A DNA stretch of 64,000 nt from Terasakiella sp. SH-1 (GTDB lineage Bacteria > Pseudomonadota > Alphaproteobacteria > Rhodospirillales > Terasakiellaceae). A program made the position numbers and the translations under genes. The DNA lies in assembly GCF_004564135.1 (NCBI RefSeq), contig NZ_CP038255.1, positions 2,963,501 through 3,027,500 of the forward strand. The letters are read 5' to 3'. The notes beneath the pieces are model-generated. The model made no database searches. It saw only the letters and a program-made list of their open reading frames with translations, and was not told where the DNA came from. Positions 58,403 through 62,279 of this stretch are shown here, piece after piece (position 1 is the first letter of the stretch; each line of letters begins with the position of its first letter).

Positions 58403-60778
58403 TTATTCAACCCCGTCTTGACCTGCAAGAATTTTACGCCGCCCAACCCGATCAGGGGCTGACACAATGCCGTCTTCTTCCATCTGATCAACAATACGCG
58501 CTGCCCGGTTATAGCCGATAGACAAGCGACGCTGGATGTGGCTGGTGGATGCCTTACCATCTTGAATACAAATTTGCACTGCCTGGTCATAAAGCGCATC
58601 ACCGCTGGATGTATTGCCCCCTACAGAACCTGCGGGCATGACCAGACCGTCAATCGGTTCATCGCTTTCTTCTGTGACCGCATCCACATAAGCAGGCTCA
58701 CCCTGTTTCTTCAGGTGGTTGACCACTTCTTCAACTTCTTCATCAGAAGCAAATGGACCATGAACACGCGAAACCTGCCCGCCATTAGGTTTAAAGAGCA
58801 TATCCCCCATCCCCAAGAGCTGTTCAGCCCCTTGCGTTTCTAAAATAACGCGGGAGTCAATCTTGGTCGTCACTGTAAAAGCAATACGAGACGGGAAGTT
58901 GGCCTTGATCGTCCCGGTCATCACATCAGTTGAAGGACGCTGCGTTGCCATGATCAAATGCACCCCGGCAGCACGCGCTTTTTGCGCCAAAGACTGGATA
59001 CAGGCATCAATCTCTTTACCCACCATCAACATCAGATCAGCAAATTCATCGACGATCACCACAAGGAACGGCATGGGTTCCATATCCAGTGGCTGTTCTT
59101 CAAAGATCGGCTTGCCTGTTTCCGGGTCAAAACCGGTTTGCACCCGACGGGTCAGCACTTCGCCTTTCTTGCGGCTTTCTTCCAGCTTGGCATTATAGCC
59201 TGCGATGTTACGCACCCCCAGATTGGACATGAGGCGGTAACGCTCGTTCATTTCCTGAACACACCATTTCAGCGCCATCACAGCCTTGCCCGGATCTGTC
59301 ACCACAGGAGACAACAAATGCGGAATGCCTTCATATACAGACAGTTCCAGCATTTTTGGATCAATCATAATGAACTTACATTGTTCCGGCGTCATGCGAT
59401 AAAGCAGGCTCAAGATCATGGTATTCACACCCACAGACTTACCGGAACCGGTTGTCCCTGCCACCAACAAGTGCGGCATACGAGCCAGATCGGCCATAAC
59501 AGGCTGACCGCCAATATCCACACCGAGTGCCATATTCAATGAGGCTTTCGGATTATTGAAACTATCAGCCTCAACCAATTCACGTAGATAAACAGTGTCA
59601 CGACGCGCATTGGGTAATTCAATGCCGATGACGCTACGCCCCGGTACAACTGCGATACGCACAGAGACAGCAGACATGGAACGCGCAATATCATCTGCCA
59701 GCGAAATCACCCGTGATGTTTTTGTCCCCGCAGCTGGCTCCAGCTCATAAAGCGTCACCACAGGACCGGGGCGGACTTCAACGATTTCCCCCTTAATACC
59801 GAAATCAGAAAGGACCTGTTCCAGCAGTTCCGCATTATGTTCAAGGGCAGCACGATCAATCTTAGCCGCCTGTTTTTGCGAAGCAGATGCTTCGGCCAAC
59901 AGGTCAAGGGGCGGGAAATTATAGCTATCTGGAGAAAGGACCAAATTTTGCTGTTTGGCTTTCTGCGTCTTTTTCGGCAAGGCGACGTCTTCAACGTCCG
60001 GCGTGCTAATCTTGGTCTGTGTTTTCTTACGTTTAAGGACAGGGGCCTCTTCTACAATACCGCTTTCTTCCTCAATCATCTCGTCCAGCTTGGTACGTTG
60101 AAGAACACTAACCCCTTTGCTCACCGCTTCAACAGACCCATTCAAGGTACCGCGTGCCGCCACAGCCACACCATGCCCCATATGCGACCATTCATTTTTG
60201 GATAAGGCCAATCCATAAATCAATCCAACCCCGCCAAGAACCGCCGCCAAAAGCGCAATTCCCCAATCAAGAAACGGCAAGGTTTCCAGCCCGACAAAGG
60301 CAAACAGCCCCATAATCCGTTCAGAGAGCATCAGGCCGGACAAGCCCCCAAGCCCACTGCGCAACGGCCAATCAGAGGGCATGGGCAACACATGAAAAGC
60401 AATGGACAATAAAAAAGCGCTAAAACACAACACAACAAGACGCATCCACAAATTGGATACCATTTGTTTGGACGCGATACGCCAGGCCCAGGAAAACAGC
60501 ACCAACACAGGTAGCGTACTGATCAGGCCAAAGGATTGCATCATAATATCGGCAACATAGGCCCCAACCGGACCAAGCAAATTTTGTACATCATGAGGGG
60601 AGGCACTGTTAAAAGACGGATCACCTGGCGTATAGCTTAGCAGAATCATCGCCAAAATGATGGCACTGCCCCCTAAAAACAAACCGGATGTTTCAATTGC
60701 ACGATTAAACAAAAAATCTTTGACCGCCGCAGGTAACAAAGGAGTCCGTTGGCTTTTGGATGTGGTGCGCGCCATCAC
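58403..60778 (-). CDS. ftsK: DNA translocase FtsK
   Basis: 791 residues. The N-terminal 200 residues hold four membrane segments that anchor it at the septum; a short linker follows. The motor has Walker A VAGTTGSGKSVGVN, Walker B VVIVDEFADLMLM, and ATQRPSTDVMTGTIKANFPSRIAF. The C-terminal gamma winged helix (DGKASTSHIQRRLSIGYNRAARIVDQMEEDGIV) reads KOPS sites. It moves chromosome ends during division and activates XerCD. The linker is shorter than that of E. coli. Confidence 0.97.
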   Translation of the reverse strand: MMARTTSKSQRTPLLPAAVKDFLFNRAIETSGLFLGGSAIILAMILLSYTPGDPSFNSASPHDVQNLLGPVGAYVADIMMQSFGLISTLPVLVLFSWAWRIASKQMVSNLWMRLVVLCFSAFLLSIAFHVLPMPSDWPLRSGLGGLSGLMLSERIMGLFAFVGLETLPFLDWGIALLAAVLGGVGLIYGLALSKNEWSHMGHGVAVAARGTLNGSVEAVSKGVSVLQRTKLDEMIEEESGIVEEAPVLKRKKTQTKISTPDVEDVALPKKTQKAKQQNLVLSPDSYNFPPLDLLAEASASQKQAAKIDRAALEHNAELLEQVLSDFGIKGEIVEVRPGPVVTLYELEPAAGTKTSRVISLADDIARSMSAVSVRIAVVPGRSVIGIELPNARRDTVYLRELVEADSFNNPKASLNMALGVDIGGQPVMADLARMPHLLVAGTTGSGKSVGVNTMILSLLYRMTPEQCKFIMIDPKMLELSVYEGIPHLLSPVVTDPGKAVMALKWCVQEMNERYRLMSNLGVRNIAGYNAKLEESRKKGEVLTRRVQTGFDPETGKPIFEEQPLDMEPMPFLVVIVDEFADLMLMVGKEIDACIQSLAQKARAAGVHLIMATQRPSTDVMTGTIKANFPSRIAFTVTTKIDSRVILETQGAEQLLGMGDMLFKPNGGQVSRVHGPFASDEEVEEVVNHLKKQGEPAYVDAVTEESDEPIDGLVMPAGSVGGNTSSGDALYDQAVQICIQDGKASTSHIQRRLSIGYNRAARIVDQMEEDGIVSAPDRVGRRKILAGQDGVE

Positions 60779-60899
60779 ATTCTCTCATGACTATTCAAAC
60801 AGAGTTTTGGTTATGCTCCACCTTATCGAAAGAGAGTTAAGGGATGGTTTACGCCCTTTTCTTAAAGAGAATTGACAATTCGCAATGAAAAGAAATCGG

Positions 60900-61002
60900 G
60901 AATTTCGCATGATCCCCTTACCCGCTGAACAGGTACCCTCCCTTCAGCATTAATCTCGCAGCCCTCTTTCAGTTCCCCAGACCTGAAAGAGGGTCTTTTT
61001 TT
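60900..61002 (+). ncRNA. Candidate small RNA upstream of pgk
   Basis: This gap has no coding frame. A hairpin GCTGAA / TTCAGC (60924-60929 and 60943-60948) exposes a loop with ACCCTCCC, complementary to a Shine-Dalgarno sequence. It is followed by a full rho-independent terminator (60962-61002). No rightward gene lies upstream that this terminator could serve, because ftsK runs leftward. Start unknown; a TTGACA at 60872 lacks a good -10. A leader or attenuator of pgk is the alternative. Confidence 0.5.
60962..61002 (+). terminator. Orphan terminator upstream of pgk
   Basis: Stem CCCTCTTTCAG / CTGAAAGAGGG, 10-base loop, then TCTTTTTTT. It ends 78 bp before the pgk start. Confidence 0.9.
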
Positions 61003-61079
61003 GGCTTAAATTTCCAACAAAAATATGTATAGTGCGCTCAAGGGTCTCTAGATACCATCACATATTTTAAGGAATTCCC

Positions 61080-62279
61080 ATGTCCCAGTTCAAAACACTT
61101 AGTGATTATGATGTTGCAGGCAAACGCGTTCTGCTGCGTGCTGACTTGAACGTCCCGATGAAAGACGGTGCCATCACAGACACCACACGTATTGACCGCA
61201 CCTTGCCCACCATTGAAGAGCTGGTGCAAAAAGGTGCCCGTGTTGTTCTGATCACACATTATGGTCGCCCCAAAGGCCAGCGTGTCCCGGAAATGAGTGT
61301 GGAACCGATTGCGGGTGCAGTGGCTGAAAAACTGGGTAAAGACGTCAAATTCGGTTCTGACTGCATCGGTGAAGAAGCTGAAAAAACAGTCGCTTCCCTA
61401 TCTGACGGCGACGTCTGCATTCTGGAAAACCTGCGCTATTATAAGGAAGAAACAGATAACGATCAGGCGTTTGCCGAAAAACTGGCAAAACTGGGCGATA
61501 TCTATGTCAACGACGCCTTTTCTTGTGCTCACCGTGCCCATGCATCCACCGAAGCCCTTGCCCGCCTGTTGCCCTCTGCAGCTGGTCGTTTGATGCAAGC
61601 TGAGCTGGAAGCCCTTAGCGGGGCCTTGGAAGCCCCCGAACGCCCGGTTGCTGCCCTTGTCGGCGGGGCCAAGGTATCTACAAAGCTGGATGTTCTCAAC
61701 AACCTGTCGGCCAAAGTGGACATGCTCATCATCGGGGGCGGCATGGCGAACACATTCCTCAATGCTCAAGGTGTGGATATCGGCAATTCCCTGTGTGAAC
61801 ATGATCTGGCAGATACCGCCAAGGAAATTCTAGCCAATGCTGAGAAAAATGGCTGTGACATCGTGCTGCCCGTTGACGGTGTGGTTGCCAAGGAGTTTGC
61901 CGCCAATGCCGAAAACCGTACAGTTGCCCTGGCTGACGGTGTGGCAAAGGACGAGATGATTTTGGATGTCGGCCCAGCTTCTGTTGAAGACCTGAAAGAC
62001 CGCCTGTCCAAATGCAAAACCATCGTCTGGAACGGCCCGATGGGCGCCTTTGAAATTGCCCCATTTGACAATGGTACAAACGGCGCTGCCCAAGCTGCCG
62101 CCGCCCTGACCAAAGAAGGTTCACTTGTTTCTGTTGCCGGTGGTGGTGATACGGTTGCAGCCCTTGAACATGCCGGGGCCAAAGCGGATTTCACCTATAT
62201 CTCAACCGCAGGCGGCGCTTTCCTTGAATGGCTGGAAGGCAAGGAACTGCCGGGCGTTGAAGTCTTGCGCGTGAAATAA
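61080..62279 (+). CDS. pgk: Phosphoglycerate kinase
   Basis: 399 residues. It interconverts 1,3-bisphosphoglycerate and 3-phosphoglycerate. Motifs: [14 protein letters not shown] near residue 18, [34 protein letters not shown], and the ATP site WNGPMGAFE and [16 protein letters not shown] upstream of the ATG. Its own terminator follows. Confidence 0.97.

Follow-up and report, generated by a model that had tools for sequence, protein, structure and literature searches.

The alphaR14/NfeR1 RNAs (SmelA075 family) of the Rhizobiales are trans-acting alphaproteobacterial small RNAs (sRNAs) that carry anti-Shine-Dalgarno (anti-SD) motifs in hairpin loops, with variable stems and invariant loops. 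They form three hairpins, each with CCUCCUCCC (PMC10746234, PMC3927594), and the anti-SD loops of NfeR1 repress translation (PMC10746234). The alphaR8 RNAs (MmgR, SisA-D) are short molecules that combine a single hairpin, a single CCUCC-type anti-SD stretch and a terminator, and their 10-mer UUUCCUCCCU is single-stranded after a weak hairpin (PMC12559287). Other sRNAs are linked to low-oxygen regulators. E. coli FnrS is controlled by FNR, and in R. sphaeroides two sRNAs have FnrL bound ahead of them (PMC4263372); FnrS of the Enterobacteriaceae represses many mRNAs that the cell can do without in anaerobiosis (PMC8139620), and RSs0019, RSs2461 and PcrZ of Rhodobacter sphaeroides are alphaproteobacterial sRNAs tied to FnrL (PMC4263372, PMC8139620).

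The window analysed here is a 64,000-nucleotide stretch of the complete 3.83-Mb genome of Terasakiella sp. SH-1. We found in it what is very probably a real, conserved and undescribed sRNA gene, which has the following features and neighbours.

58403 to 60778, minus strand: ftsK-like DNA translocase gene, the divergent left neighbour, with its start at 60778.
60870 to 60887, plus strand: predicted FNR/FixK-type operator AATTGACAATTCGCAATG, with half-sites TTGAC (60872-60876) and CGCAA (60881-60885) and its centre at 60878.5, present in six of six genomes.
60908 to 60913, plus strand: predicted -10 element CATGAT, 29 bases past the box centre, as would suit class II (-41.5) geometry.
60920 to 61002, plus strand: sRNA gene with a predicted transcript of about 83 nt, the 5' end placed from the putative promoter and the 3' end from the putative terminator; recognised from fold z-score, homologues and covariation.
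60924 to 60948, plus strand: hairpin 1, stem GCTGAA/TTCAGC, recognised from folds and from compensatory changes at two pair positions in the genus.
60935 to 60942, plus strand: anti-SD motif ACCCTCCC in the loop of hairpin 1, with the core CCCTCC invariant in six of six genomes.
60961 to 61002, plus strand: intrinsic terminator with a 12-pair stem (60961-60972 with 60983-60994) and a run of seven T (60996-61002), recognised from folds and covariation.
61022 to 61035, plus strand: predicted pgk promoter element AATATGTATAGTGC, with -10 TATAGT at 61028-61033, downstream of the sRNA terminator.
61080 to 62279, plus strand: pgk, phosphoglycerate kinase, a neighbour outside the sRNA.

In hairpin 1, GCTGAA (60924-60929) and TTCAGC (60943-60948) form the stem and enclose the loop CAGGTACCCTCCC (60930-60942). 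A linker of 12 bases (60949-60960) leads to the terminator stem, whose arms GCCCTCTTTCAG and CTGAAAGAGGGT (60961-60994) are followed by C and the seven T. The preliminary description of this DNA had reported the hairpin and a strong terminator, both of which are present, with a gap of 13 bases that proved to be 12. It had also set the candidate at 60900-61002, of which the right end holds and the left edge was too generous, the predicted 5' end lying at about 60920 and 60900-60919 being promoter. Its statement that no gene lies to the left on that strand agrees with the minus-strand orientation of ftsK. We found that the segment 60920-61003 folds at -29.8 kcal/mol (z -6.38) and that the longer 60900-61004 reaches z -3.66, with none of 200 shuffles as good in either case. 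The loop of hairpin 1 is open in the centroid structure, and two G-C pairs inside the loop partly cover the motif in the MFE structure; the modelled unpaired probability along ACCCTCCC is about 0.36-1.0. Short matches to 60899-60914 elsewhere in the genome appear inside coding genes, so that a repeat family was rejected. On the other side of the intergenic region, a TTAA-N7-TTAAC-like (CtrA-type) box lies at 60830-60853 upstream of ftsK (reverse strand TAAACCATCCCTTAAC); its 24 bases are identical in two other species, and it stands before ftsK-like genes in the genus.

Homologues of the sRNA were found in all five other Terasakiella genomes examined, namely G001 (L010), G002 (L044), G003 (L034), G004 (L073) and G005 (L041), that of G001 matching at 80% over 170 bases. 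The FNR/FixK-type box, the CCCTCC hairpin and the terminator occur together in each of the six genomes. When the six RNAs were aligned, the stem core GCTGA/TCAGC and the loop CCCTCC were invariant, and the terminator varied in sequence with its pairs kept. An automatic alignment put the stems out of place, and a hand-built alignment, padded to fit the stems, was used instead. The resulting counts, which lean towards structure on that account, gave 94.9% of cells paired and 9 pairs with double changes, two in hairpin 1 and seven of the 12 in the terminator, whose cells were 100% paired. None of 500 shuffles reached any of these measures and slid controls gave 45-50%, although with six related sequences these figures are counts and not probabilities. 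That six genomes share this hairpin, its loop core and the terminator, with compensatory changes, is more than chance would give; conservation of the loops in related genomes was a check proposed in the preliminary description.

Covariance-model searches over 199 genomes of the order (R1) and over 385 of the class with 38 relatives (R2), run with strict filters and a model built from few sequences, gave real matches in the genus only, the sRNA not being found outside Terasakiella in more than 500 alphaproteobacterial genomes. Matches outside the genus that were inspected were look-alike terminators. Upstream of pgk, no comparable hairpin and box were seen at 79 further loci of this gene in alphaproteobacteria. 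In G001, a second hairpin-plus-terminator (L010:1410-1485) a short way upstream of the sRNA scores 44.7 bits to the sRNA model and overlaps the stop codon of a cytochrome b gene; it is perhaps a decayed duplicate of the sRNA.

With the alphaR14 RNAs, the Terasakiella sRNA shares the anti-SD loop, ACCCUCC(C/U) or close variants, but it has a single ACCCUCCC hairpin and a terminator in place of three hairpins, so that membership in that family was rejected. No sequence relation between the two was detected, and alphaR14 carries LsrB/NtrC sites where the Terasakiella gene carries a Crp/Fnr-type box. It resembles alphaR8 in being short, with one hairpin, one CCUCC-type stretch and a terminator, whereas its motif lies within the hairpin loop and the alphaR8 10-mer is absent. 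Membership in alphaR8 was likewise rejected, the locus having no match to the Rfam suhB model RF00519, which we take to be alphaR8. An RNA elsewhere in the same genome (L353, G000:C1:2234082-2234158, minus strand) carries GTTTCCTCCCAAAC and a terminator and scores 39.0 bits against the RF00519 gathering score of 41; it is likely the alphaR8/suhB RNA of this genome. With Rfam 15 covariance models, the window gave no hit at gathering score and no match to the RNA at E <= 10; within 60780-61100 we saw only a spurious viral match (E 1.8) outside the RNA, and the homologues gave spurious matches only. Thus, the likeness to alphaproteobacterial anti-SD sRNAs noted in the preliminary description stands as to the general kind and not as to any described alpha-r family, and the Rfam comparison that it had proposed matched the RNA to none of these families.

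FnrS resembles the Terasakiella sRNA in being under FNR control, a control that we infer for the latter, but it comes from an unrelated lineage and has no relation in sequence or structure, as indicated by the lack of an Rfam match. The R. sphaeroides RNAs are other genes in another bacterial order. The Terasakiella sRNA is undescribed as a gene; FNR-linked sRNAs as such (FnrS and those with FnrL bound before them) are already known. Two further RNA candidates were noticed. One (L356, G000:C1:2569855-2569932, minus strand) forms several hairpins in which CCTCC or CTCCC is exposed, has a terminator as well, and is a possible multi-loop anti-SD sRNA. The other, at L178 and L179 (G432 and G332, one genus), has a conserved CACCCTCGTTCTGCGAGGTGTGCCTCCCC followed by a terminator and is a candidate sRNA of another family.

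In all six species the sRNA and pgk share a strand, the sRNA lying no more than about 1.7 kb upstream, and a terminator ahead of a gene is the layout of an attenuator. We therefore considered whether the structure is a pgk leader acting in cis, with transcripts from the upstream promoter passing the terminator and continuing into pgk in certain conditions. Against this, a promoter element of pgk itself, AATATGTATAGTGC or TTTTATGTATATTGC, lies past the terminator and directly before pgk in each of the five genomes compared, also where genes intervene, and the folds showed no alternative pairing of the antiterminator kind. The gene order varies as well: cobS-cobC-sRNA-pgk in G002 and G004; cobS-cobC-octaheme cytochrome-cytochrome b-sRNA-pgk in G001; octaheme cytochrome-cytochrome b-sRNA-(convergent tautomerase-like gene)-pgk in G003; cobS-cobC-sRNA-two genes-pgk in G005; and ftsK as the left neighbour of the sRNA in the window (cobS, cobC and tautomerase being named from reading the translations and the cytochromes from NCBIfam). 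The separate pgk promoter and the intervening genes in G003 and G005 indicate, on sequence evidence, that the sRNA is a separate gene as the preliminary description had supposed, and we regard a leader as very improbable. The link to carbon flow through pgk that had also been suggested finds no support, since pgk has its own conserved promoter past the terminator and the sRNA promoter points to an FNR/FixK-type (oxygen/redox) signal. It is scarcely credible that the element serves only to end an upstream transcript, or to terminate transcription from both sides, and stands next to a hairpin by chance. Terminators do score best in the model and the weak matches elsewhere are terminators only, but in the window no gene precedes it on this strand, all six genomes retain hairpin 1 and its loop core and show compensatory changes, and the operator-type box precedes the sRNA everywhere. 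Taken together, these comparisons at the sequence level establish that there is a gene independent of pgk, that it has a two-hairpin structure with an invariant loop core, and that the box is conserved.

The box, passed over in the preliminary description, has its core TTGACAATTCGCAA at 60872-60885 and recurs ahead of the sRNA in each of the six genomes in the form TTG(A/C)NAA(T/A)TCGCAA. It fits the TTG-N8-CAA class of Crp/Fnr-superfamily sites, and is asymmetric (TTGAC-N4-CGCAA) as compared with the canonical FNR site TTGAT-N4-ATCAA (PMC2908626). In the window, its centre is at -41.5 from the predicted start at 60920, the foot of the hairpin, and CATGAT falls at -12 to -7; the closest relative, G001, has CATTAT in this place. 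A TTG-N8-CAA site stands at an activating position upstream of this predicted start. The class II geometry holds in the window and G001 and roughly in G003, and is variable in the other genomes. The distance from box to hairpin is 45-46 bases in three genomes and 65-76 in the other three; being 20-31 bases longer in G002, G004 and G005, it implies that the promoter geometry there must differ. Allowing at most one mismatch, the 16-mer ATTGMNAATTCGCAAT occurs 3-6 times per Terasakiella genome, as compared with 0-2 for a control pattern. A box TTGCGAATTGTCAA was also seen at L020 (G042), where two hairpins, CCTCCC and a terminator come after it, next to a tRNA-like sequence; this locus was rejected as a homologue because of its different structure in spite of the similar box and CCTCCC, and is another candidate for an sRNA linked to a Crp/Fnr box.

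Among the other sites in the genus, one precedes, in G001 and G003, the gene of an octaheme tetrathionate-reductase-family cytochrome (TIGR04315, 613 bits), after which comes a cytochrome b gene, and one precedes a DsrE-like gene (named from reading the gene) in G003. In all six genomes, a site lies before the gene of a 33-aa membrane protein immediately downstream of an FNR-like regulator gene. The small protein itself (MDSIAMFGIGGVVTTVVVVIGLLAFLMRKINGN; L087:1290-1391, minus strand, with orthologues near L051, L043, L058, L080 and L057) had no NCBIfam match and is conserved in the genus. The adjacent FNR-like protein of the window's genome has its nearest PDB counterpart in an FNR-type regulator (5cvr and relatives, E ~1e-21), and E..SR, the pattern by which FNR recognises its site, is retained. 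Its Cys16, Cys19 and Cys117 match FNR ligands, and Ala25 occupies the place of the third N-terminal cysteine ligand of FNR, which would put it in the FixK group by the rule of PMC2908626; from its sequence, it may lack direct oxygen sensing. A second FNR/FixK-like protein (L085) is also encoded. Judging from the sites and proteins, we consider control of the sRNA by an FNR/FixK-type regulator to be quite probable.

We propose that a Crp/Fnr-superfamily regulator of the FNR/FixK group would bind the box at 60872-60885 and activate transcription from about 60920 at low oxygen or a related signal, giving an RNA of about 83 nt that would stop at the terminator of the gene. In the 5' hairpin, the ACCCUCCC loop, single-stranded for the most part, would then pair with GGAGGGU-type ribosome-binding sites of target mRNAs and block their translation, for which NfeR1 is a precedent. 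Hfq, which is encoded in the genome, would probably take part. An autonomous trans-acting sRNA, induced by such a regulator and blocking ribosome binding through its loop, is the reading that we hold to be probable from the sequence data. As for the loop itself, a conserved CCUCC-type motif, CCCTCC in six of six loops and mostly unpaired in the models, makes an anti-SD action reasonably probable. In the window's genome, GGAGGGT occurs 3-9 bases before ATG at nine places as compared with 13 for a control, and such start sites exceed the control in several relatives. Clustering of the possible targets brought out a few pairs and a LexA-type repressor gene that was confined to three of the other species, with none shared by more than three species; the pairing of loop and target may be shorter or bulged.

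The absence of GGAGGGT enrichment in the window's genome would also suit a real sRNA whose loop does not cover ribosome-binding sites but sponges up another RNA or binds a protein. C-rich motifs can pair with G/A-rich RNAs, and in Caulobacter the anti-SD motif of SisA-D is the pairing partner of a sponge, CrfA (PMC12559287). However, an anti-SD mechanism calls for precisely such a core as the invariant CCCTCC and could work with just a few real targets; we judge the sponge or protein-binding role to be quite unlikely. Somewhat unlikely, in our view, is that the sRNA is driven by another Crp/Fnr member (NnrR/DNR-like, CRP-like or of other specificity) in response to nitric oxide, carbon or redox, and not oxygen. 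About six Crp/Fnr-type regulators are encoded in the genome, the sites of the FNR, FixK and DNR groups are nearly alike in alphaproteobacteria (PMC2908626), the half-site CGCAA differs from the canonical ATCAA, and the adjacent regulator is without one FNR cysteine. The sites before the tetrathionate-reductase-family cytochrome operon and beside the FNR-like gene nevertheless favour the anaerobic-respiration group in general. We prefer the FNR/FixK-controlled anti-SD sRNA as the working model.

More tentatively, and just short of what we would call probable, the gene may be an oxygen/redox-switched anti-SD sRNA, an independently arisen and lineage-specific alphaproteobacterial counterpart of FnrS that would silence mRNAs with strong GGAGGGU sites on a shift to anaerobic respiration. 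The genus Terasakiella includes a magnetotactic species, T. magnetica, in which oxygen control matters. For this genus, the present gene adds an sRNA that is conserved and undescribed and whose predicted switch is the FNR/FixK-type box. With a regulator class, a seed and the species named, the idea can be tested. The gene also suggests that separate bacterial lineages may each, independently, have put a repressor RNA under a low-oxygen regulator.
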